Shown: positions 2,720 through 35,487 of the stretch, piece after piece
Position numbering within the stretch: the stretch's first letter is position 1
Layout: every line of letters begins with the position of its first letter
Source of the DNA: a virus
Reading direction: 5' to 3' (one strand)
Length of the DNA: 35,589 nt
IMG/VR virus record: IMGVR_UViG_3300048556_000301
Location: 1 to 35,589 of that record
The notes under the pieces: model-generated
The model's input: only the letters and a program-made list of their open reading frames with translations
The model's database searches: none
What the model was told of the DNA's origin: nothing
Translations under genes and position numbers: made by a program

Positions 2720-3754
2720 ATGCCAACTAACATTGCAACTTCCTATAATGTAACAAGTGCCAAAGGGGCCTTAGAGAATCTCGAAGGGTATCTGAAATCT
2801 GTCGAGCCAACAGAAACGCCGTTATATTCTACGCTATCACAATCAGCCGCTCCAAAGGCAACTCTCAACGAGTGGTTAGTAGACTCTCTAGCAGACCCTG
2901 AAATCGGTGGGGTAATCGACGGAAATGATCTCGATCTTTCTACTGCTCAAAACTTAATCGACACTCGTGCAAGATTACATAATCGTGTGCAGACATTCCG
3001 CGACTACTTTGCGGTATCTCGTCAAGCTGAGATGATTGATGTCGCTCCTAATGGACAGGGTGGATTATTTGCCGCTTCCAAAGCAAAATCACTTATTCAG
3101 CTTAAACGCTCTATTGAAACTGCTATCGGATCAGGAAATGATCAGAGTGCAGGTTCAGGTGTAGCCGCCTCGACCCTTTGTGGGTTAGGGATTTGGTCTG
3201 ACCCAAGTGCGACCGGAAATACATATGATACAAGTGCCAAACAAGCATTCCGTGCAGTTAGTGGATCGCGCGTATCTCTTGGTTCTTTAACTGAGTCAGC
3301 TCTTCGCGGATTACTTCAGGCAGTTTACACTGCTAGTGGTGCTAAAGGTTCCTACAAATTGTATGCTGGACCGGCTGTCATGGCGGCTATCACAGATTAC
3401 ACCCGTGCCGCAGTTACCAACAATCCTGTTTACAGTTTCACTCAAGATGTAAGTGGTAAGACATTAGTCGGATCAGTTCTTCATTATGTTTCAGACTGGG
3501 GCAGTATCGATATTATTCCTGACCTCTTTTTGGGTCGCGTGAATGGATCGGCTTCCGGTACTGACACTGTTGAAGGTACAGTAAACACGGATCGTGCTTA
3601 CTTAATTCCTGACGATGACACTGTTTCCCTCAAGTTCCTTGAAGGCATTTCCGTAGTGGATCTTCCTGACAACGGAGGTGGAAAGAGAGCATTCTCTGAG
3701 TGTATGGCTACACTTCGCGTAGGTAATCCAAGAGCTTTGGGGTCAATCGTTTAA
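2720..3754 (+). CDS. Major capsid protein (SU10/DUF5309-like)
   Basis: A 344-aa protein between scaffold and connector genes, followed by a strong terminator. The C-terminal pattern DRAYLIPDDDTVSLKFLEG, the N-terminal ETPLYSTLSQSAAPK and the overall length agree with the HK97-fold major capsid family I know as the SU10-like or DUF5309 group. The start ATG 2720 follows an AT-rich leader without an SD. It should assemble into the icosahedral head on the scaffold encoded just upstream. No decoration domain or prohead-protease cleavage site is apparent. Confidence 0.9.
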   Translation: MPTNIATSYNVTSAKGALENLEGYLKSVEPTETPLYSTLSQSAAPKATLNEWLVDSLADPEIGGVIDGNDLDLSTAQNLIDTRARLHNRVQTFRDYFAVSRQAEMIDVAPNGQGGLFAASKAKSLIQLKRSIETAIGSGNDQSAGSGVAASTLCGLGIWSDPSATGNTYDTSAKQAFRAVSGSRVSLGSLTESALRGLLQAVYTASGAKGSYKLYAGPAVMAAITDYTRAAVTNNPVYSFTQDVSGKTLVGSVLHYVSDWGSIDIIPDLFLGRVNGSASGTDTVEGTVNTDRAYLIPDDDTVSLKFLEGISVVDLPDNGGGKRAFSECMATLRVGNPRALGSIV

Positions 3755-11932: not shown

Positions 11933-12973
11933 ATGAATAAAACAAAAGATCCATTGGCAGAGGCCGCTCGGCTTTTAAATGAGAATGCTCCCGAAGGTGA
12001 GTCACTCGCCTACATAAATTCCGCAGAAGCAGAAATGCTCAAGGATGCCGGAGGGGCGGGCGAACCTGTAAACAGTTCGGGCGTTCCATCTTATTTCTTA
12101 CAGAAGCTCTTTGGTGGAGGAAAGAAACCACCTCCCATGCCCGAGTTTAATGTCGGTAAGTCTGCTCGCGATTATGTAGATGCGATGTCCTCCCCTGAAA
12201 TTCAGGGCAAACTTTTACAGACTCGTCAACAGTACGATCCGCAATATCAGGATTTGCAGATAAGCCTCGCCCAGCGAGCCGCTGATCCGATGGCACAGCT
12301 TGCGGAATCAAATGCTATGCGAGCACAGGACTTTGGCGCACAGATGGCCGAGCGTCAGGCAGGTTCTGATATATCAATGCTCAATCGATTTGGAGCGGAT
12401 TTAAATCAGGCTTATCGCTCATCCGATCCGCTCATGCAGGCTCGCGTGGAACAGGCAAATCAGTTAGCCGACCAGGCATTTAGAGAGTCGCAGATTCAGG
12501 ACTTATCTCCTGAAATGAGAAGACGGGCGACTCAATCGGCTCGGGAGGGATTGGTGGCTCGAGGCAGGGACATGGACAATGCGGCAATCGCGGCCGAGGC
12601 GATGAGCAGGGAGGATTATTTACGGGACATCATTCGCGAGAATCGAGACGATGTGATGAAGCTTGGCGGTTATGCAATGCGAGGTAACCAGGTTACCTCT
12701 GTCGATCCAATGGCCATGCTTAGAGGTGGAAGTAATTACACCCAGCAAGGCTTTGGCGAAAGGGCGGCTTTATTCGGAATACCACAGGAGCAGTCAACCA
12801 GGATCAATCCTGATGCCGGAGTAAATATCGGATTACAGGATAACGCAAATCGTGCAAACTACCTGGCAAATACTTATGCGGCTCGTGAACAGGCGGCAAG
12901 CGGAATGGCGAGTGGATTGATGGGAGCCGCAGGTTCAATAGTAGGCGGATTCTTAGCGGGAAGGAATAATTGA
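11933..12973 (+). CDS. Internal virion protein (ejection protein) 1
   Basis: A 346-aa protein with AAGGAA upstream of ATG 11933. It is mainly helical and rich in Gln, Ala and Arg (residues 80-230), with a Gly/Ala-rich hydrophobic C-terminus (GMASGLMGAAGSIVGGFLAG) that could insert in a membrane. It is the first of three consecutive proteins of rising size before the replication genes, the same order as gp14, gp15 and gp16 of T7, which are ejected with the DNA. The analogy rests on order, size and composition. Confidence 0.6.
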   Translation: MNKTKDPLAEAARLLNENAPEGESLAYINSAEAEMLKDAGGAGEPVNSSGVPSYFLQKLFGGGKKPPPMPEFNVGKSARDYVDAMSSPEIQGKLLQTRQQYDPQYQDLQISLAQRAADPMAQLAESNAMRAQDFGAQMAERQAGSDISMLNRFGADLNQAYRSSDPLMQARVEQANQLADQAFRESQIQDLSPEMRRRATQSAREGLVARGRDMDNAAIAAEAMSREDYLRDIIRENRDDVMKLGGYAMRGNQVTSVDPMAMLRGGSNYTQQGFGERAALFGIPQEQSTRINPDAGVNIGLQDNANRANYLANTYAAREQAASGMASGLMGAAGSIVGGFLAGRNN

Positions 12974-12974
12974 T

Positions 12975-14276
12975 ATGGCAATCGGCGATACAGTACAGGC
13001 GGGCTTGGGACGGATGGACTTCTCAGCCTTTCAGACAGCAGGGGCGGCACAGGCTCGAGCGAATGAGGCATTCGGTAATGCACTCGGACAGGCGGCCACC
13101 GCATACTTTGCAGGGAAGAAGAAGAAGGAGCAGAAGAATGCTCTAAAGGAATATCTCATGCGAAATGGTGCTAATGAGGAGGATGCAAATGCGATGACCA
13201 AATCTCCCCAAGCATTAGAGATGTTTAATCAGAAGCTTGCCCGTGACCAGCAGATGGACATTGCCAAGTTACGGGTCGCCGCTCAAAGGGCAGAAGGTGG
13301 TGCGAATAGAGCACAGGTGGCGGCTAAAATGGAAGCTGAACAAAAGAAAGAACAGATAGCTACAGATTTTAAACAAAAGTTGCTATCGGAAACAGTAGAC
13401 CCAGCAGTACAAGCAAACTTTGAACAGGCACAACCAGGATTATTTGCATTGGGAGGCGATCCGACTCGGAGGAATCAATTTTTAGAGGCTCAAAGGGATC
13501 AGCAACCAAAAGTAATTGCTGGCGAACTTGGATCTTCTGATTTCGCGAGGTTTGCTCAAGACAATCAACTTGATCCCAATTTGGCCTATAATAGGTTTAT
13601 TAAGCTACAAGAGGCAGAGGCAGATTTAGCAGAGTCAAATAGAATAGACCCAAAAGATGCAATTGACCTTAAAAATAAGGAAGAGACAACAAGGCAATTA
13701 TTTGACAAGCCGTTAAACGATCTCAGTGCTAATTTCGATAAAAATAAACAAGTACAAGATTATAAAAATGTCGTTATATCTTATAATACGATAAGTTCAG
13801 CGGCAGAAAACCCGTCAGCCGCGGGTGACCTAAGTTTGATCTTTCAATACATGAAAGTTCTTGATCCTGGTAGTACAGTTAGAGAAGGAGAGTTTGCTAA
13901 CGCACAAAATGCCGCAGGAGTGCCTGATCGAATTCGTAATTTATTTAATAATTGGTCAAAAGGGCAAAGGCTTGACGAGAATCAAAGGCAAGATTTTATT
14001 ACCCAAGCTAAAAAAATAGTAGATGCTAGAGGTAAATCTATTGATCCCTTAATACGCCAAACTAGGCAAAAGTTTGACAGAACAATTAATAAGCAAAACC
14101 GAAATCTAACACCCGATCAAGCTGACTTACTTTTTGAGGAGGTAATATTCCCTGACATTAAATTACCTCAAAACGCGCAATCAAAAGGACAACCCCCTCA
14201 AAACCAAGGTTCCTCTCCACCGCCCTTTCAACCGACACAATTACCAAGTGGTGGAAGATTTACTCCCATAAGATAA
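12975..14276 (+). CDS. Internal virion protein (ejection protein) 2
   Basis: A 433-aa helical protein, starting one base after the previous stop with AAGGAATAATTGAT before the ATG. The stop overlaps the start of the next gene (TAATG). Long Ala/Gln/Lys-rich coiled-coil stretches are seen (KLRVAAQRAEGGANRAQVAA), and the C-terminal 40 residues are Pro/Gln-rich. Base composition becomes more A-rich after about 13340, giving a visible change of codon use inside the gene. By order it corresponds to the middle internal virion protein of T7-like phages. Confidence 0.6.
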   Translation: MAIGDTVQAGLGRMDFSAFQTAGAAQARANEAFGNALGQAATAYFAGKKKKEQKNALKEYLMRNGANEEDANAMTKSPQALEMFNQKLARDQQMDIAKLRVAAQRAEGGANRAQVAAKMEAEQKKEQIATDFKQKLLSETVDPAVQANFEQAQPGLFALGGDPTRRNQFLEAQRDQQPKVIAGELGSSDFARFAQDNQLDPNLAYNRFIKLQEAEADLAESNRIDPKDAIDLKNKEETTRQLFDKPLNDLSANFDKNKQVQDYKNVVISYNTISSAAENPSAAGDLSLIFQYMKVLDPGSTVREGEFANAQNAAGVPDRIRNLFNNWSKGQRLDENQRQDFITQAKKIVDARGKSIDPLIRQTRQKFDRTINKQNRNLTPDQADLLFEEVIFPDIKLPQNAQSKGQPPQNQGSSPPPFQPTQLPSGGRFTPIR

Positions 14277-17200
14277 TGGCTAAGTACGAGATTAGTCACC
14301 CCGAGCTACCACAATTGCAAGGGATATTGGAATTGGATGATGGCGTGGAACCATCGGAACAGCATTTTTGGGAAGCCGCTAAAACAGTGGTTCGGCCATA
14401 TGGTGCATCGCAATTATCAGACAACGCTAAAATCGCCGCATATAAAAATGGATTCTTCGATACACCAAGCACACCTATTCTTGATGTGGAAGATGATCCT
14501 GAGACAATTCAAAATGAAGAGCAACCTGGTATGCTTTCAAGTCTTGGAGATATGGTCAGTAAGCTCGGCACAAGAATCGATCCATTAACATCTCCCTATT
14601 CCAAAGTATTACAGTTAGACGATGAGCCTGTAGCTTACGATAAAACTGAAAACTTAGAGCAGTTCCGAGTGGCAGGGAAATATCTTTTCGGACTACTTGA
14701 TAATCAGGAAAGTTTGAGCGATCTAGGTTTTGATCCAATTAGCGAGGCATTGAAGTATACAGGGATGCCGTTTTACACCAAAAACAAAGATGCCCGAGGG
14801 CGGGTAAAAGCCGCCGCTATGGATTATGCCACCGATAATATTAAGGCATCGGCAGGTATGGGAATGGCAAGGGCATTTAAGACTCCTGAGTTTTTGCTCG
14901 AAGGGGGTGCATACCTTGCAAATAAAATTACACTGGATGAGGAGGATGACGAAGAAATCCTAGATTATGTAAACTCGGCTATCGGGTTTGATAAAGTAAA
15001 TTCAGAGTATGAAACTGCCGCTGAATTAGCGGCATGGGTAATGGATAATCCTGTCGATGCAATAAAAAGCACAGTCGGAATTGAGCCTGAAAAAATGTCA
15101 TTCAGTTCACAACTTGAGCAGGATATTCGTACAGGCTACCAGGAACCAAGTGAGGGTGTCGGTTTAGCATTTGAGATTGTCGGAGATCCTTTAAATCTTG
15201 CAGGTGCTCCTGTAGCCAAGGCCGTAACCTCTCCAATGAGAATTGGGCTTAAAGGCAGAATGCTTAAAACTCTTACAGATGTTCAGCAGAAAACAATGGA
15301 ACTTACAAAGTATCAAAACATACTTAAAAAGTTGCCGGATGATGCTTTGGTTAAGGGTAGGGTAGCACAACAGGCTGAAAGAGTTGCAGGCGAATTAGCA
15401 GAACAGCAAAAGATTTTACAGAAGTATGGTAGCAACTCGCTACACCTTCGACTTATGGGGAAAGCCTCACCCGAAACTCTCGGCAAGGTGGCGATGGAAA
15501 CATTTGACCAGTCAACCGATGCCGGAAAGATGGGTATGTCATTAGTTCAGGAGGCGACAAAGGCATCCGATCAGATGAGCAAACTCCGTAGAGTTGCGAA
15601 CACTGCGGCCAAACTCAATCCTGAGATTGCCGGTGCTACTGTAGGAGGGTTAGTGGCTGGACCTGTCGGAGCAGTTGCAGGTGCTACTATACCGACTGTC
15701 ATAAAAGTGGCGCGACTTATATCCTTCATGCCTGAAAATGTGGCAACTCGTTATATTATAACGGCCGCACAAAATGCTGGTGAGGAGATAACCGAACAGG
15801 CGGCTCGCCAAAGATACAGAAATTACAGAAATATGCTTGGCACTGCCCTGGGTCTAGGTTCTGCCGCAGGGTTTGCCATTGACTCGGATGCATTAGGTGG
15901 AGGAGCAGGTATAGCCGCACTTTCCACTTTACTTGGACCCAAAGCATTATCCCTGTTCGATAACATCGCAAGAGATGCCCGAGTAGTCGGATCAGAACTT
16001 ACTCTCGCAAGAACGGGCGATCATACACCATTCTTCCGTAGACTTTCTATGCTCCCAACTCCCGATCAAGGACTCGCTGGAGCAACGATGGATAAATTTA
16101 ATATCCTTATGAAACCTGGTCCTGAAGGATTAGTAAGTAGAGTAGGGGATGCTATTGCTCAAGGAGGTAGGGCATCAGTGAAAGAGGTAAATCCATCGGC
16201 ACAACCTTTTAGGGTAGGACCAGGTGGAGAGAAAATCGGGCAAGCCCCAACCATATCAGGTGCGACTCAAAAGGTTGCAAACTTTTTAGACAAAGCCGGA
16301 CCTTTCGGTAGAATAGGATCTCCTGTTGAGTCTATGGGCAGATTTGCCACAGGCATGGCAGTCGGTGCGGCGATACCTTCGACTATAGGCTTTGTGGCAT
16401 CAGGAGGGCAGGCAAGTGGTGCTGTGGCAGGTGCAGTCATGTCAGCACCTTTCACTGCACTCGGAACAGGTGCAGGAATGTATCAGAACTATAAGACCAA
16501 GGGCGATCTTTACGCCAAGCAGATAGGCGATATTCAATACTATCGTGAGCATTTAACTAAAAACGAAAGAGAAGAATTTGATGCCTTGCCGGCTAATATA
16601 AGAGCAAATGTTGCAGGCTACAGTTTATCCCATCCCGATGTTGTATTTAAACAGACAAGCGAAGGGGAGGGAGGATTTAATCCTGTAACGATGGAGGTAT
16701 CCTATAATCCTAATGGTACAGGATTTTTAAAGGGTACTATGGCACATGAGATTACGCACTTCATGGAAGTCCACGGACTTACTCCAATGGTTAATCGAAT
16801 ACTGTTTGGCGATCAAACGACTAAGACACCAGGTGAATTTGCGTCCTACGATAAAGATGGAAACATCGTTTACACCGATGAGTTTATGCAACTTAGAGAC
16901 ATCTATATGGATCGTCTCCGAAAGGATACATCACTAGACCCCGATGCTGTTGCCGAATACGAAGCTAATCCACAAAAAATCGGCAGAGAAATATTTGCCG
17001 ACCAGGGAGCCGATTTTCTTTTAACCGGCAAACGGGAGAAAGCACTCAACCAAGGACCAGTCGGAAAGCTGATGCAGGAAACTTTAAAAGGTATCACAGG
17101 CGTATCCTTTCTTCGAGACTTCCTATTGAAGATGAATCTCCCACTCAATGCAGATGGAAAGTTTATCACATCGACAGACCTCTTTAAAGGTAAGCTCCGA

Positions 17201-20119
17201 AAGATCCCCGAGTTACAGAATTTAATAGAAAAATATTACAAGGATGTCCGAGGATTAAAGAAGGCACAGATTGAAGGTTCAGAATACACTGATCCCTTTA
17301 CCGGCAAAACCCGCAAAGAAGAAGGCAAGAAACCAATCGATGATGAGTTTGAAACTCTGTACTCAGTGGAAGATCAGAAAAACCCCAATGTGGTCGATAA
17401 ACTAAACACTGGTGGAATATTTAAAAGTAATCCACAAACAGGAGAGATCGAAAAAGATGCACTGGGTAATCCAATTCGTATGACTAAAGGTGAGGCTGAA
17501 AAAGTTTCACAGGCCGCTGGTGATCATGCCGCAGATGTATTAAAAAGAAATGGCATAGAAGTCGAAACCAACGATAAAGGTCGGCCATTTGTTAAAGACT
17601 TACCAGCACTCAGCGAAGCAGTTATTGATCAACTCGCCAAAGGACCAATTCATCCTAGACAATTAGCCGGCCTTCGTGAAATCTCCCGAGCATTAAGAGA
17701 AGGAGACGGAGAAAGGGCAGGAATGCTTATTGGTTATTATGCCGCCACACAGGGAAGAAAAGCAAAGGCTGTACCATTTGCCATCCGTACAACCATGCCA
17801 TTCGGCTTCGAGCTTACCGCACAAGGTAACATTCTTGTCCGCCTGCATGATGTCGATCAGATACAAAAGAATTTAAAATTCCTCAAAGGCGAGAAACAAC
17901 CCAAGAAATTACCCAAAGAACTAGTCGGAATGTACGATGAACTATTTGGAAACGACAATGCCGTTTGGGACGCATTTGCTCTGTATAGACAGAATACCGC
18001 CAACGGCATTGACGGCAGGACAGGACTAGATTCCGATCCAGTCATCGCAAATAAGAAATTGAACTTTCTGAATGCATTGCATGGAGGGATCACCAAGTCT
18101 CAAGTCGCTATGAATCCTGTTCTCAATGCAATCGGATATCAGATGGCAGGCATTAATAAAAAGAACAATCCATTCGGTCCAGCCACTAAAACATTCCGAT
18201 TAGATCGAGTATTCAATGCACAACGATCAGGGAGAGCATCGCCCGTAAACGAGCAAAGAGTAATTAACTTAATGTCTCCACAAGGACAGAAACTTTATAC
18301 TCCCAAACCCGAAGCCGATGTGCAGATTACCGACAAGCTCTTCATGCCGATGTCGAAGGAGGAAACGATATTTGCAGAAGTGATGAGCGATTCTAAGTTC
18401 AAAAGTGATACAAAGAGAAGAGCGGAAATGATTAGGCGGGGAGTGCCACAGGATCGTGATTTATTAGAACTCGGTCAGGAAGTCAGAAAGAAGTTAGGTA
18501 TATCTCCCTATGAATCAATTAAGGATGCGTACAAGGAGGCAAAAAGCCAAGACAAGCTCTTCATGCCGGCCTCCGAAGCGGGTGCGGGGAAGGGGAAGCA
18601 AGCCGAGGCCGCAGATTTAGATTTTAAAATTAGCACAAGAAATCCTACCGCTAAGAATGCGACTGAAAATCCAATCGCAGAAGATTTAATAATCAATACA
18701 GCATCGATTGCAGATGATGCTACAATGTTGGAATCTCATGCTTTAGCACTTCAGGAGTACCCTGGTATAAAGAAAAACTCTAAAGTGCCAAAAAGAATTA
18801 TAGATAGGTTTGTGGACCATGTGGTAGACAATCTTTTGTACCTGCACGACCAGGTTCGGCCTGAAGTCAGAGATCGATCTAAACTTTGGTACGATGGTGC
18901 TAGAAATATTACCGAGAAGTGGAATCAACAATATGGTAATGATAAACAATCAATTGCCGCCGCATTAGCTTCCTTATCTCCACAAAAAGACTGGTTTATG
19001 AATGTAGACTTAGCCCGCAGAATGCTTGATATCTATAAAGATCAATCAGGCTTTGCGTTCGATAAAGCTATGGCTAAAAAATATATTCAGCTTTTCGAAA
19101 AAGGTATCGGTAAAAAGAAAGCAACCGAGATCGCAGAGGCTATGGTTGGTAAAACTTTAAACGAGTTGCAAAGCGATTTTGAGCAAGCCGCTTTTATTCG
19201 CTCATACGATGAAGTTTATAATCCAAGAGAGTACCAGGTTGTTTCTCCTGAAGGAGATTTTATCGGACTGGCAAAATCATTAGATGGAGTAAATAAAAAA
19301 GTAGCGTGGGGCAGTATGACGGAAATTTCCAAGGCTGTTAAAGTTTTAAGAAATCCATCTAAGGAAAGCATTTCAACTGCTTTAGGTAACGCTCATAAAA
19401 TCAGAAACTTTTATAATAATATCCTTCTTCCAAATGCAGATGAGTTTTCTGTAACGATTGATACCCATGCTATTGCCGCCGCTTTACTCAGACCATTAGC
19501 TGGTGCAGATTTAGAGGTTGCAAATAATTTCGGATCAAAGCCTAAAGGTGCAAAACGAAGTATTAAGAATAGTTCTGTAAAAGGAATTAGTGGCACATAT
19601 GGAATATATGCAGATGCATACAGGAAGGCCGCAAAAGCTCGAGGTATTTTGCCTAGAGAAATGCAAAGCATAACCTGGGAGGCAGTTAGAGGATTATATG
19701 AAGCTAAATGGAAAACAAAATCTAATAAGGCTAAAATTGACAATTTGTGGAAAAAATACGAGAATGGAGAACTAACTTTAAATGAAACAAGAGAACAAAT
19801 CCTTGAAGCCGCAGACGGAATCAGAGAACCTGAATGGGTTACAGAAAGATCCGATAGTGGAACAGATGGAGGTAATGAATCTTCCAATAAATCGGAGGAA
19901 TTATATCGGTCTGAGTTGGGGGGATCGGAATTACGAGCCAACCCCCGAGGAGGAAGAACTAATCCCCGAGGTTCTAAAGAAGTAAACTTCTTGCCGGCTG
20001 GAAACTTTTCTAGCCAACCCGCCAATCGCATTACCCGCCAAGCACCCGCTATGCCTGGTAATCGGTTCATGCTACCTGCGGCTACAGCAGGTGCTAAATC
20101 TGCCGAGCGATTTCGCTAA
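14276..20119 (+). CDS. Giant multidomain ejected virion protein: metallopeptidase motif plus DNA glycosylase-like domain
   Basis: A 1947-aa protein in the position of T7 gp16. Gly/Ala-rich hydrophobic stretches (about 450-485, 521-560, 687-735) could form a membrane channel. A zinc-peptidase motif H824-E825-I-T-H828 follows, with E905 in REIFADQGADF a possible third ligand. FMP linkers occur at D1353-KLFMP, D1426-KLFMP, NFLPAG and RFMLPAA near the C-terminus. The region of about 1480-1880 matches the core of endonuclease III: SLSPQKDW (S1566 on) with MNVDLA, HK1708IRN, and VTID1729THA against SAQ..VNKA, RKTAN and AVDTH. This layout recalls phage polyvalent proteins. No lytic transglycosylase motif was seen. 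The C-terminal 100 residues are disordered-looking. Confidence 0.75.
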   Translation: MAKYEISHPELPQLQGILELDDGVEPSEQHFWEAAKTVVRPYGASQLSDNAKIAAYKNGFFDTPSTPILDVEDDPETIQNEEQPGMLSSLGDMVSKLGTRIDPLTSPYSKVLQLDDEPVAYDKTENLEQFRVAGKYLFGLLDNQESLSDLGFDPISEALKYTGMPFYTKNKDARGRVKAAAMDYATDNIKASAGMGMARAFKTPEFLLEGGAYLANKITLDEEDDEEILDYVNSAIGFDKVNSEYETAAELAAWVMDNPVDAIKSTVGIEPEKMSFSSQLEQDIRTGYQEPSEGVGLAFEIVGDPLNLAGAPVAKAVTSPMRIGLKGRMLKTLTDVQQKTMELTKYQNILKKLPDDALVKGRVAQQAERVAGELAEQQKILQKYGSNSLHLRLMGKASPETLGKVAMETFDQSTDAGKMGMSLVQEATKASDQMSKLRRVANTAAKLNPEIAGATVGGLVAGPVGAVAGATIPTVIKVARLISFMPENVATRYIITAAQNAGEEITEQAARQRYRNYRNMLGTALGLGSAAGFAIDSDALGGGAGIAALSTLLGPKALSLFDNIARDARVVGSELTLARTGDHTPFFRRLSMLPTPDQGLAGATMDKFNILMKPGPEGLVSRVGDAIAQGGRASVKEVNPSAQPFRVGPGGEKIGQAPTISGATQKVANFLDKAGPFGRIGSPVESMGRFATGMAVGAAIPSTIGFVASGGQASGAVAGAVMSAPFTALGTGAGMYQNYKTKGDLYAKQIGDIQYYREHLTKNEREEFDALPANIRANVAGYSLSHPDVVFKQTSEGEGGFNPVTMEVSYNPNGTGFLKGTMAHEITHFMEVHGLTPMVNRILFGDQTTKTPGEFASYDKDGNIVYTDEFMQLRDIYMDRLRKDTSLDPDAVAEYEANPQKIGREIFADQGADFLLTGKREKALNQGPVGKLMQETLKGITGVSFLRDFLLKMNLPLNADGKFITSTDLFKGKLRKIPELQNLIEKYYKDVRGLKKAQIEGSEYTDPFTGKTRKEEGKKPIDDEFETLYSVEDQKNPNVVDKLNTGGIFKSNPQTGEIEKDALGNPIRMTKGEAEKVSQAAGDHAADVLKRNGIEVETNDKGRPFVKDLPALSEAVIDQLAKGPIHPRQLAGLREISRALREGDGERAGMLIGYYAATQGRKAKAVPFAIRTTMPFGFELTAQGNILVRLHDVDQIQKNLKFLKGEKQPKKLPKELVGMYDELFGNDNAVWDAFALYRQNTANGIDGRTGLDSDPVIANKKLNFLNALHGGITKSQVAMNPVLNAIGYQMAGINKKNNPFGPATKTFRLDRVFNAQRSGRASPVNEQRVINLMSPQGQKLYTPKPEADVQITDKLFMPMSKEETIFAEVMSDSKFKSDTKRRAEMIRRGVPQDRDLLELGQEVRKKLGISPYESIKDAYKEAKSQDKLFMPASEAGAGKGKQAEAADLDFKISTRNPTAKNATENPIAEDLIINTASIADDATMLESHALALQEYPGIKKNSKVPKRIIDRFVDHVVDNLLYLHDQVRPEVRDRSKLWYDGARNITEKWNQQYGNDKQSIAAALASLSPQKDWFMNVDLARRMLDIYKDQSGFAFDKAMAKKYIQLFEKGIGKKKATEIAEAMVGKTLNELQSDFEQAAFIRSYDEVYNPREYQVVSPEGDFIGLAKSLDGVNKKVAWGSMTEISKAVKVLRNPSKESISTALGNAHKIRNFYNNILLPNADEFSVTIDTHAIAAALLRPLAGADLEVANNFGSKPKGAKRSIKNSSVKGISGTYGIYADAYRKAAKARGILPREMQSITWEAVRGLYEAKWKTKSNKAKIDNLWKKYENGELTLNETREQILEAADGIREPEWVTERSDSGTDGGNESSNKSEELYRSELGGSELRANPRGGRTNPRGSKEVNFLPAGNFSSQPANRITRQAPAMPGNRFMLPAATAGAKSAERFR

Positions 20120-22279: not shown

Positions 22280-22310
22280 GGGTGGCCGGTTAGTGTGTGG
22301 CCGGTCACCC
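22280..22310 (+). terminator. Stem-loop after SSB-like gene
   Basis: GGGTGGCCGG (22280-22289) pairs with CCGGTCACCC (22301-22310), ten pairs with one G-T, around an 11-nt loop. It begins 28 bases after the SSB-like stop. The next bases (TCTACCCC) are not a U-tract, so it may be a partial terminator or an mRNA 3'-end stabiliser rather than a full intrinsic terminator. Its stem echoes the GCCGG/CCGGC core of the capsid terminator. Confidence 0.5.
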
Positions 22311-22330
22311 TCTACCCCAACAACAACGAC

Positions 22331-22396
22331 ATGAATCCAATAATACTTTTAGCAATAGGGTGGCTCGCCGTAGTCATCGATATTTTTTTAACATGA
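22331..22396 (+). CDS. 21-aa hydrophobic micropeptide (possible)
   Basis: ATG 22331 begins an ORF of 21 codons that is almost entirely one membrane helix (IILLAIGWLAVVIDIFL). Its TGA overlaps the ATG of the DnaA-like gene (ATGA, 22393-22396), the same coupling seen between confirmed genes here. No SD is visible. It could be a real membrane micropeptide or just a coupling leader. Confidence 0.35.
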   Translation: MNPIILLAIGWLAVVIDIFLT

Positions 22397-22665
22397 GAGA
22401 TTTAAAGGAAATTTTTAAGGCCGTAAGGAAGGTGGGCTTTACCAAAGGAGATATACTCAGCAAGAATCGTAAACAACCTTTAGCCTTGGTTCGACAGGTG
22501 GCAGTTTGGCTTGCTCGAGAAGGCAGAACGCTCGAGGAGTTGGGCGATATATTTAATCGTAACCATGCGGCGTGTTTACATTCGGTAAGACAAGTAGATA
22601 ATCGTTTATCCTATAATGACCTAGAGGTTGCCGAATTGATGGAAAAGATGGAGGTGGCTACATGA
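22393..22665 (+). CDS. DnaA domain IV-like DNA-binding protein
   Basis: A 90-aa protein from ATG 22393; an in-frame start at 22297 would run through the hairpin region and is not preferred. The segment ILSKNRKQPLALVRQVAVWL, AREGRTLEELGDIF, NRNHAACLHSVRQV matches the DNA-binding C-terminal domain of DnaA (SK.R..., RQ.AMYL, SL..IG..F, DH.TVLHA..K). The AAA+ and N-terminal domains are absent, so it cannot unwind an origin by itself. It may bind DnaA boxes as a competitor or origin marker. It lies between SSB-like and exonuclease genes. Confidence 0.75.
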   Translation: MRDLKEIFKAVRKVGFTKGDILSKNRKQPLALVRQVAVWLAREGRTLEELGDIFNRNHAACLHSVRQVDNRLSYNDLEVAELMEKMEVAT

Positions 22666-31229: not shown

Positions 31230-32834
31230 ATGCCACTCGAATGGACACCCCATCCCGCTCTCCCGCCCCTCAGCAAATCGGAACTCCTGCGGATGACCCC
31301 TGAATCGATTTTGGCGTATTGGGAGACCAGGGAGCAGGCTATTAAAGATGAAAAGGATGATCCTTACAGATGTGGCTTTGAACTGGATACCTGGAAGCGG
31401 GCAGATGAACAGTTAAAGAATCACTCGGAAATACTCGTTATGGGAGGGAACAGGGCAGGAAAGTCTGAATGGGCAGCCAAGCGGGTAGTGCAATCCCTTG
31501 TTGAGAACCCAGGAACGATCATATGGTGTCTTACGGAGACATCGGCCAACAGTATACAGTTCCAGCAGAAGCTAATATTTAAGTACCTACCAAAGGAGTT
31601 TAAATCGTTAGGTAGGGGTAAGGTCGGATATGTCATGTACAGCCTTCGTAATGGCTTTACTGCATCTAAATTCACACTGCCTAATCGCTCTGAGTGTATT
31701 TTTAGATTTTGGCAACAGGACATCAGCACAATCGAGGGAGGAGAGATCGGCTGTCCGCAGGAACCGGTCAACGGAACCCATAATATCGGCTATTGGGCAG
31801 ATGAATTGGTACCGATGAGCTGGGTAAATACACTTCGTTTTCGGACAGTTACCCGCAATTCCAAGGGAATTATCAGTTTCACGGCCGTTGATGGCTGGAA
31901 CTCGGTGGTAAAGAGTATGCTCACAGGAGCAAGAACAGTGGAATCGGCAAAAGCGGATCTTTTGGACGGTGAAGAGGTTCCCCTCGTTCAACAGCCCATC
32001 CGCAAAGCCAGCTCTGTGGTGTATTTTCATACAGCGGCCAACCCCTTTGGCGGATGGGCGGCGATGAAGAATCAATTGGAGGGGGAGAAGAGGGAGACTA
32101 TTCTCTGTCGTGCCTATGGAGTCCCTGTGAGGCAGTCTAGGGCTGTGTTCAAAAATTTGACAGACCGCAACTATGTACAGGCTGAAAATCTCCCTGATTT
32201 TACGGATGCGAATTGGGTATTATCGATTGACCCTGCTGGAGCAAAGCCCTGGACGATGGTATTATTTGCAGTCGATCCTCATGGGGTCGCCTGGGCGGTT
32301 AAGGAGTTTCCTGATTTTGACACCTGGGGTGGATGGATTGACCTGACCAAGGACAAGCTAAGTGCGGGAGAGGCGGCACAACCGAATGGGTATGGATTAA
32401 AGGATTATGCGGATGAGATTAGGCGGATGGAATCGATTTGCGGGGATAATATGGTAACTCGGATAATCGACCCGAGGTTGGGGGCGGCGAGTTATCAGAA
32501 GTCGGAGGGATCTTCCAACATCATAGACGATTTATCGGATGAAGATATCATTGTTGAGCCGGCGGAAGCACTCGACATCGAAACAGGACTCCAGGCGATT
32601 AATAATTTATTAGCATGGGATCGGAACAGGGATATGGATTTGGATAATAAGCCCCGGCTGATGTTTTCGGATGAGTGTCAGAATCTGATTAGTTGTATGC
32701 AGGCATACCAACCGACTGCCGGATTAAAATGTCCGAGTAAGGATTTCGTGGATAATGCCAGGTACTTCGCAGTGGGCAATTTTGAATACTTCGATGAGGA
32801 GGAAATGGTGGCAACAGGAGGAGGATCGTATTGA
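31230..32834 (+). CDS. Terminase large subunit
   Basis: A 534-aa packaging motor. ATPase domain: Walker A GGNRAGKS (K78), Walker B IGYWADE (D191, E192). Nuclease domain: LSIDPAG (D334), RIIDPRLG (D414) and KDFVDNARYF (D505/D508), the three-acid RNase H-like centre. ATG 31230 has no SD. The gene heads the packaging-head block and overlaps the next gene by one base (TGATG). It translocates DNA into the prohead through the portal encoded downstream. Confidence 0.95.
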   Translation: MPLEWTPHPALPPLSKSELLRMTPESILAYWETREQAIKDEKDDPYRCGFELDTWKRADEQLKNHSEILVMGGNRAGKSEWAAKRVVQSLVENPGTIIWCLTETSANSIQFQQKLIFKYLPKEFKSLGRGKVGYVMYSLRNGFTASKFTLPNRSECIFRFWQQDISTIEGGEIGCPQEPVNGTHNIGYWADELVPMSWVNTLRFRTVTRNSKGIISFTAVDGWNSVVKSMLTGARTVESAKADLLDGEEVPLVQQPIRKASSVVYFHTAANPFGGWAAMKNQLEGEKRETILCRAYGVPVRQSRAVFKNLTDRNYVQAENLPDFTDANWVLSIDPAGAKPWTMVLFAVDPHGVAWAVKEFPDFDTWGGWIDLTKDKLSAGEAAQPNGYGLKDYADEIRRMESICGDNMVTRIIDPRLGAASYQKSEGSSNIIDDLSDEDIIVEPAEALDIETGLQAINNLLAWDRNRDMDLDNKPRLMFSDECQNLISCMQAYQPTAGLKCPSKDFVDNARYFAVGNFEYFDEEEMVATGGGSY

Positions 32835-33410: not shown

Positions 33411-33414
33411 AGTG

Positions 33415-35487
33415 ATGGAGAACGAAGTACAGATTTTTGAAGACAAGCCCGATGTTGATGAACTCAAGTTCGAGTTTGAGCGGGCAAAAGCGAATTTATC
33501 GACATGGATGGACCGGGCAGAAGATGCTCGGGAGGTTCGTTTCAACGAGTGGGCAGGCAAGACGGGTGACGGAAAGAAGAGTGGACCTGAAGCCTTTCCC
33601 TGGTCAGGGGCAAGTGACCTTGATCCGAATGTGATTAATCCATTGATCGATGGCGATGTTGCCACCCTGACACAGGCGTTGACCAAGGCTAACCTGGTGG
33701 CGGCACCCGTGGAAAGTGGAGATGTGGCATCGGCCAAGCTGGTTACTGAGTTTCTCCGATGGCGAATGGGTACGATGGATGAACTGATGAGGGAGTCATC
33801 GATTGGAGCGAATTATTTATTACAGAACGGGGTAACCTTCTTCGGTACTTACTGGAAGCAGGAGAAGGCGAGAAAGTTTGAACCGATCAGCCTCGAGCAG
33901 ATTGCCCAGCAATCGCCTGAACTGGCAATGGCGATAGAAGATCCTGAGATGAAGGAGGGAGTCGAGGAGATGTTTTATCCCCTCTTTCCGAAGCTCAAAA
34001 AGCGTAGGGTCAAGAAGATGCTTAACGAGTTACGGAATACAGGTGAGACCGAAATTCCGACCGAAAAAGTGGTCGTAAATCGTCCTGCGGTTAAGGCATA
34101 CGAGTTAGGCAGGGAACTGATCGTGGACAGTAATGTAATCGATTTGGAATCCGCCAGGAGCATTCACTGCATTCATTATTATTCGCCTGAAGCGTTGAAG
34201 CAGAAGGTAAATGAGGGATGGGATGAAGCGTGGATTGATGAAGCGATTGAGAAGGCGAAAGATTTTTACGAGGAGAGATACAGCGACTCGGCCATGCATT
34301 ATGACTATGGCACAAGCTATGGCAGTCAGCACTACGAGGGGCTTATTCGGGTAGTTACTACCTATCGGAAAGAACTCGATGAGGATGATGTTCCCGTGGT
34401 TACCAAGACCTGCTGGACGGATGAGATGGATGAAGCAGGTTTCCATGAGCCGGTTGGATATGATGAAGGCAGATATCCGTTCGTATGTATCACGCGAGAG
34501 CATTTAAACCATCGTTTACTGGACTCTCGCGGATACCCTGAACTGCTTAAGAGTTATGAGTTGGCGGTAAAGACAGAAGTCGATAGTCGCCGAGACCGAG
34601 CATCGATGAGCACCATGCCACCGGTGGAATATCAGATTGGCCGTAGGCCTGAGCGTTTAGGACCAGGAGCACAGCTTGGGGTACGCCGTAGGGGAGAGGT
34701 CGGATTCATGGAGATCCCCCGTTATTCGCAGGCAAGCATGGAAGTGGAGATGCAAATCCGCCAGTTGTGTAATCGTATCACAGGTCGGGCGACTGGACCT
34801 GACGATGCGGTGGAGGCCAATGTGATAAAACAGCACCTGGTCAACTGCTGGCTAAGTGGATGGAAAGAAGTTTTGAAGCGTGTATGGTGCTTGGATCGAA
34901 CTTACAGCGGACCCATGATTTGGTTTCGGGTAACAAATAATGAGCAGGGAGCACAGCTTATTTTGGATGAAACTGCTGAGTTGTATGATTTTAACATTAG
35001 CTGGAACTCGATGAACCAGGACGAATCCAAGGTGATCGAAAAGCTTGATACAGTTGGTAAGCTGATGGCTCAGTACGACCGCAGTGGTCAGGCTCGATTC
35101 GATATTTATCTTCGCAAGGTATTGGAAGCGATTGATCCTAACCTGGCATCGCAATTAATCATGCCACAACAGGAGGCTACCGATAAGGAGATTCAGGAAA
35201 CTTCTGCGGATATAGCCAAGATAGCATCGGGTCAGGTGGTCAATGTTCCACAGCAGGGAGTAAACTCTCAGCTTCGTCTGCAACAGCTTCAACAGTACAT
35301 CCATGGAACTCCCGAAATACCGGCACAGGATGTTCAACAGAGAATGCAAGAGGACGAGAATTTCGCGAAGAGGCTTCAAACATATGCGGGTCAGCTCGAG
35401 ATGATGGAAGTACAGAACCGCAATAAACTAATTGGCCAGCTAGGGACAGCCCCTGGCAATGTACCAGGTACATCGATGGCCGCTTAG
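33415..35487 (+). CDS. Portal protein
   Basis: A 690-aa protein from ATG 33415 (a GTG at 33412 would add one residue). Features typical of podovirus portals: helical N-terminus (ELKFEFERAKANLSTWMDRA), FPWSGASDLDPNVINPLID, a GVTFFGTYWKQEKAR segment and a Gln-rich, helical C-terminus (LRLQQLQQYIHGTPEIPAQD) after about residue 590. It forms the dodecameric ring at the head vertex, where terminase docks and connectors attach. The large size and Gln-rich end suit a portal with a barrel-like extension. Position directly before the head genes (read circularly) supports the call. Confidence 0.85.
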   Translation: MENEVQIFEDKPDVDELKFEFERAKANLSTWMDRAEDAREVRFNEWAGKTGDGKKSGPEAFPWSGASDLDPNVINPLIDGDVATLTQALTKANLVAAPVESGDVASAKLVTEFLRWRMGTMDELMRESSIGANYLLQNGVTFFGTYWKQEKARKFEPISLEQIAQQSPELAMAIEDPEMKEGVEEMFYPLFPKLKKRRVKKMLNELRNTGETEIPTEKVVVNRPAVKAYELGRELIVDSNVIDLESARSIHCIHYYSPEALKQKVNEGWDEAWIDEAIEKAKDFYEERYSDSAMHYDYGTSYGSQHYEGLIRVVTTYRKELDEDDVPVVTKTCWTDEMDEAGFHEPVGYDEGRYPFVCITREHLNHRLLDSRGYPELLKSYELAVKTEVDSRRDRASMSTMPPVEYQIGRRPERLGPGAQLGVRRRGEVGFMEIPRYSQASMEVEMQIRQLCNRITGRATGPDDAVEANVIKQHLVNCWLSGWKEVLKRVWCLDRTYSGPMIWFRVTNNEQGAQLILDETAELYDFNISWNSMNQDESKVIEKLDTVGKLMAQYDRSGQARFDIYLRKVLEAIDPNLASQLIMPQQEATDKEIQETSADIAKIASGQVVNVPQQGVNSQLRLQQLQQYIHGTPEIPAQDVQQRMQEDENFAKRLQTYAGQLEMMEVQNRNKLIGQLGTAPGNVPGTSMAA

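Follow-up and report, generated by a model that had tools for sequence, protein, structure and literature searches.

A divergent HhH-GPD glycosylase-like domain in a cysteine-free phage protein predicted to be delivered by the virion

The DNA glycosylases known from viruses, T4 PDG among them, are produced once infection has begun. For the chlorovirus PDG, packaging is expressly denied (PMC7019647). The polyvalent proteins described by Iyer et al. (2017), giant multidomain late proteins with LPD, ART or zincin-type partners, were proposed to be injected together with DNA, and the main text of that paper makes no mention of a glycosylase (PMC5512222). Among ejected proteins, the N4-type RNA polymerases have been reported to lack cysteine, an absence that was tied to cell entry (PMC2784036, PMC3915230). 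Our search of the open literature returned no papers on ejected or virion glycosylases and none mentioning the Pfam family DUF7178; what is already known is the family itself and the glycosylase label on a few of its stand-alone members. A divergent glycosylase domain within cysteine-free ejection proteins appears to be undescribed in the literature searched.

The window analysed here is a whole virus record of 35,589 bases. It encodes an SU10-type major capsid protein, tail genes and a late/virion cluster whose final gene is a giant ORF (Table 1), followed on its 3' side by Holliday resolvase, exonuclease, family A DNA polymerase and helicase/primase-like genes; a dNMP kinase-like gene is also present in the genome. 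The best overall explanation of the giant protein, to which we assign a probability of roughly 0.6, is that it carries a virion-delivered, divergent HhH-GPD glycosylase working on DNA early in infection.

Table 1 Features of the window and of the giant protein (residue numbers refer to the giant protein)
Feature	Coordinates	Strand	Basis or remark
SU10-type major capsid protein	2720-3754		
Late protein, 346 aa, Cys-free, putative ejection protein	11933..12973	+	Cys count
Late protein, 433 aa, Cys-free, putative ejection protein	12975..14276	+	Cys count
Giant ORF, 1947 aa, Cys-free, putative ejected polyvalent protein	14276..20119	+	
HEITH, residues 824-828, mid giant protein, zincin-type metallopeptidase motif	16745..16759	+	Motif only; no Pfam match
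DUF7178 / divergent HhH-GPD glycosylase-like domain, residues ~1452-1856	18629..19843	+	Pfam, AF2, Foldseek
LSPQKDWFMN, residues 1567-1576, equivalent of EndoIII LSAQ...N	18974..19003	+	Conservation and hhalign
Insert 1, residues ~1590-1680, absent from stand-alone homologues; small beta element	19043..19315	+	Profile alignment gap
Degenerate hairpin G1704-N-A-H and helix led by putative Schiff-base K1708	19385..19423	+	
K1708 codon	19397..19399	+	
I-D1729-T-H, putative catalytic Asp immediately ahead of helix, HhH-GPD-like	19457..19468	+	
Insert 2, residues ~1736-1772, relative to stand-alone homologues	19481..19591	+	Profile alignment
Q-S-I-T-W, residues 1797-1801, hallmark common to stand-alone DUF7178 (QAITW)	19664..19678	+	
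Large terminase	31230-32834		Weak match
Portal	33412-35487		Weak match

The domain belongs to DUF7178 (PF23802, 'unknown function'), which matches the giant protein with 93.2 bits (E = 2.6e-26) against a curated threshold of 27 bits, and it also falls in PHROGs 3842 and 2878, both of function unknown. A preliminary description of this DNA had placed an endonuclease III-like glycosylase domain at 18590-19900; the domain is there, with slightly narrower conserved bounds (Table 1), and the motifs on which that reading relied, L1567-S-P-Q1570...N1576, G1704-N-A-H-K1708-I-R-N and T-I-D1729-T-H1731, all lie where it had put them, with the Lys-Asp spacing of 21 that it had counted. Relatives are abundant: a first viral scan returned 273 and a profile-based scan of viral contigs at least 592, while bacterial or archaeal assemblies contributed 14 loci, presumably prophage or phage contigs. 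In 27 homologues (85% identity cut), K1708, R1710, N1715, T1727, D1729 and H1731 show no variation. Across 54 polyprotein-borne homologues reaching 37% identity, all 54 of which match DUF7178, K1708, R1710, N1715, D1729 and H1731 never vary, and the same holds for G1704, H1707 and T1730 and for S1568, P1569, W1573 and N1576 of the LSPQ motif. Both proposed catalytic positions are thus kept, as had been claimed from the single sequence, and given this invariance in homologues the quoted motifs are not a chance resemblance. Measured against four close relatives, the window domain has a dN/dS ratio of 0.02-0.07 and is thus strongly constrained by purifying selection.

Structure prediction agrees with an HhH-GPD assignment. 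The AF2 model of residues 1447-1860 has a pLDDT of 95.2 and a pTM of 0.93, and its best Foldseek match in the PDB is Pa-AGOG, an HhH-GPD 8-oxoguanine glycosylase (probability 0.84), with no other match above 0.1. For the model of a compact stand-alone homologue (pLDDT 94.6), ranks 1-11 are all 8-oxoguanine glycosylases, namely MjOgg, Tm1821, OGG1 and Pa-AGOG, with MjOgg reaching a probability of 1.00 and a TM score of 0.53-0.57. The E-values are weak (0.04-0.1) despite the high probabilities; modest Foldseek E-values are usual with small all-helical folds, and the models are all-helical in the HhH-GPD manner. Within the window model, the post-hairpin helix spans model positions 261-271, a second helix at 284-291 follows D1729, and the beta element of insert 1 comprises strands at 208-210 and 216-219. 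We consider it very probable that residues ~1452-1856 adopt a divergent HhH-GPD fold. The preliminary description was therefore right about the superfamily, with the nearest known type being the cluster-free Ogg2/AGOG group rather than endonuclease III. A PDB sequence search with the domain or its profile returned only the L-ribulose epimerase ulaE, a similarity that we discarded at its chance-level E of 0.57-0.86, and neither the archaeal genomes covered nor the controls yielded AGOG (PF09171) sequences.

The link to known glycosylases runs through a second branch of the family. A permissive search recovered ~200-aa phage proteins homologous to the window domain, among which S-CRES3 gp63 and Triumph gp79, both matching DUF7178, carry the depositor labels 'N-glycosylase/DNA lyase' and 'glycosylase', respectively. 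In 45 such stand-alone homologues, W26, Y27, N66, A98, K115, F119, D132, H134, A135, Q185, T188 and W189 are invariant. Their profile aligns with that of the polyprotein-borne copies at E = 1.7e-27, with K115 and D132 in register with K1708 and D1729, such that the Lys/Asp pair is invariant in 54 plus 45 sequences. Compared with Ogg2 by hhalign, the stand-alone profile scores 36.5, higher than any of 100 column shuffles (13.8+-2.3, maximum 22.2), while a known pair, EndoIII-type against Ogg2, scores 46.8 in the same test. Against EndoIII/MutY/AlkA it scores 31.0, which again none of 150 shuffles equals (maximum 23.7), and here K115 falls on the EndoIII Lys, D132 on the Asp and the LSxQ motif on the EndoIII LSAQ. 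In the Ogg2 alignment the Asp and the F/RN stretch match and K115 lies one residue off the Ogg2 Lys, because the stand-alone Lys-Asp spacing is 17 rather than 18. The polyprotein-borne profile by itself shows similarity to EndoIII and Ogg2 at noise level only, which makes the HhH-GPD link a transitive one, via the stand-alone homologues and the structure.

Set beside its nearest relatives, the family shows a mixture of shared and divergent features. With Ogg2 (MjOgg 3knt/3fhf, Tm1821 3n0u; NF002305), the compact homologue shares the fold (Foldseek probability 0.99-1.00, TM 0.50-0.57), a ~200-aa core, the K...F.RNI.G...(I/V)D.H pattern and the lack of an Fe-S cluster. Unlike Ogg2, the window domain does not match the NF002305 family model, has QSITW in place of LDL.LW and lacks the C-terminal TG..LK end; as the Ogg2 C-terminal recognition Lys is missing, we do not predict 8-oxoG to be its substrate. 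It departs further through its fusion to a giant, putative virion protein and its two large, unique inserts, which could mask or change the active site. With EndoIII and Pfam HhH-GPD (PF00730), it has the LSxQ, KA, K and D positions in the same order, but it has no [4Fe-4S] four-Cys cluster, no PF00730 match, a degenerate hairpin and a Lys-Asp spacing of 21 instead of 18; membership of endonuclease III was discarded on the first two of these grounds. Stand-alone members such as S-CRES3 gp63 and Triumph gp79 have the invariant residues in common with the window domain, yet they lie outside virion gene blocks.

Could such a domain have kept the fold without the chemistry, binding DNA simply to coat the phage genome or to guide it as it comes in? 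The lost direct profile signal of the polyprotein branch to active families would fit this, as would the hairpin, in which the canonical L-P-G-V/I-G is replaced by L-G-N-A-H-K in the window and by L-N-G-x-K in the stand-alone proteins, with one glycine kept. That motif is variable within the HhH-GPD superfamily, however, so its degeneration lowers the closeness and does not exclude the fold. Against a purely binding role, which we regard as quite unlikely, stand the same low dN/dS and the retention of K and D in 99 diverse sequences. These residues stand where HhH-GPD enzymes have them: K1708 and K115 (54/54 and 45/45) start the post-hairpin helix, and D1729 and D132 (54/54 and 45/45) form an x-D-x-H ahead of a helix. 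HhH-GPD-like folds may also have been taken up for thymine hypermodification, and with a dNMP kinase-like gene in the genome one might propose a base-modifying, not base-removing, enzyme of glycosylase descent for phage DNA modification; retention of the classical K/D pair and the failure to recognise other modification genes within the window make this very improbable. In HhH-GPD enzymology an invariant Lys/Asp pair denotes a bifunctional glycosylase/AP lyase, and its presence here implies the same. We infer from sequence and models that the domain is probably active on DNA as a glycosylase/lyase.

The second part of the argument concerns delivery. The preliminary description had noted that an Fe-S cysteine cluster was missing, which understated the case: there is no cysteine in the entire giant protein, nor in the two genes that precede it, 2726 aa in total. 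The remaining proteins of the window average 1.0% Cys, so that zero in the giant protein has P of about 3e-9. The same division runs through the family, in which 53 of the 54 polyprotein-borne domain copies are Cys-free and 45 of 45 stand-alone copies contain cysteine (mean 2.2%). Full-length carriers of up to 3838 aa are free of it, and one of 5127 aa (L091:1095-16475) holds a single Cys. Gene context points in the same direction. In a T7-like locus (L012) the order is major capsid protein, tail tube A, tail tube B, a 316-aa and a 578-aa protein, the DUF7178 protein, a phrog_6651 protein and the tail fibre, and the Cys-free genes are exactly the four that separate tail tube B from the tail fibre (316, 578, 671 and 955 aa). 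The 955-aa gene encodes the phrog_6651 internal virion protein, which places the 671-aa DUF7178 gene inside the internal-virion-protein block. In terminase and portal, phage C75C1 is the nearest found to the window; it has no DUF7178 match, yet its giant genes of 2770, 375 and 1343 aa, at the place corresponding to the window block, are likewise Cys-free.

Homologous carriers hold ART-PolyVal, LPD38, RadC, GGDEF and methyltransferase domains, which places them among the polyvalent proteins, and the window protein resembles these in being giant, multidomain and late and in carrying a zincin-type HExxH (HEITH). It resembles the N4 virion RNA polymerase in its lack of cysteine, and differs from it in having no RNA polymerase domain. 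A reader could instead suppose a late protein that stays cytoplasmic or structural and bears a repair-like domain, since phage records gave no match to the N-terminal 1438 aa; gene position and the Cys-free ejection blocks here, in L012 and in C75C1 argue otherwise, and we judge this improbable. The earlier suggestion of an ejected virion protein is thus well supported, with the absence of cysteine read as a supporting sign, and we infer that the giant protein is most probably delivered by the virion. Entire ejection-protein blocks are Cys-free in C75C1 (L411), in L012:4684-12256 and in the window (11933-20119), in C75C1 without DUF7178, and block-wide absence of cysteine may be a general sequence marker of virion-ejected proteins.

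The proposed course of events would begin with the DUF7178 domain riding in the virion as part of the Cys-free polyvalent ejection protein, which would enter the cell alongside or slightly ahead of the phage genome and allow the domain to act on DNA prior to phage gene expression. The role of D1729 would be to activate the attack on the N-glycosidic bond, and K1708, attacking C1', would form a Schiff base, with release of the base and possibly strand nicking. The likeliest job of the domain, in the opening minutes of infection, would be to strip DNA of damaged or host-marked bases. Because a glycosylase fold and both catalytic residues occur in a probably injected protein, the virus seems to import a DNA-editing tool before expression. 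Lesions in the incoming phage genome are a plausible though tentative target, with a slight lean over host DNA; an attack on host or rival DNA is a weaker candidate. A specific form of the latter, a virion-borne base-excision weapon, would remove the bases, such as methylated or hypermodified ones, by which host or rival DNA is marked, while sparing the phage's own DNA, and the resulting abasic sites and breaks would set off breakdown of the host genome or incapacitate competitors. The ART, GGDEF and RadC company in polyvalent proteins points toward host takeover, in Streptomyces phage Triumph a stand-alone copy and an Ocr-like antirestriction gene are eight genes apart, and the packaged restriction endonucleases of chloroviruses, which act on host DNA, provide a precedent for DNA-cutting enzymes in virions (PMC7019647). 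Nothing indicates a base target, however, and the closest folds are damage-repair enzymes, which leaves this form unlikely.

A common phage family of unknown function, found on hundreds of phage contigs, gains a predicted structural and catalytic assignment from sequence and models, and, if virion-delivered catalysis is correct, a DNA glycosylase joins the enzymes that apparently travel within phage virions. The split within one family between Cys-free copies in virion blocks and Cys-containing stand-alone copies also points to an inexpensive way of recognising ejected proteins from sequence. More speculatively, a widespread class of tailed phages might inject a base-excision enzyme as a first-strike tool that breaks modified DNA of host or rival, or clears marks or lesions from the incoming genome before defence or replication, a generalization that we hold as doubtful.

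Several related proteins were observed alongside these. Mycobacterium phage TinyTim, which grows on M. smegmatis mc2 155, encodes gp105 (L184:2611-4515), a 634-aa Cys-free DUF7178 protein with GPK...VDTH, whose gene lies downstream of that for the capsid, a few genes away. With similar matches in about 170 mycobacteriophage records, it is a laboratory-tractable carrier; on virion proteomics of cluster C mycobacteriophages, nothing specific turned up among the listed titles and abstracts. Roseobacter phage CRP-738 gp40 is another candidate carrier from a cultured phage. A Pseudofulvimonas assembly, probably through a prophage, encodes a 2869-aa Cys-free protein with GGDEF, RadC and DUF7178 (L087:1194-9800). 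On the conjugative Bradyrhizobium barranii plasmids NZ_CP088101.1 and NZ_CP121645.1, a partial match to the C-terminal part of the domain (123 residues, 37%) is possibly a truncated or polyvalent copy. Virus Rctr197k_173 encodes a 2039-aa protein (L185:668-6787) that contains 7 Cys and combines pyrophosphatase and 2'-5' RNA ligase-like domains with what look like two DUF7178-like copies, marked by GPKV at residues 1211 and 1568. Within the window, the 122-aa product of positions 22297-22665 has the C-terminal DNA-binding domain of DnaA (PF08299) and may be a replication initiator of the phage.
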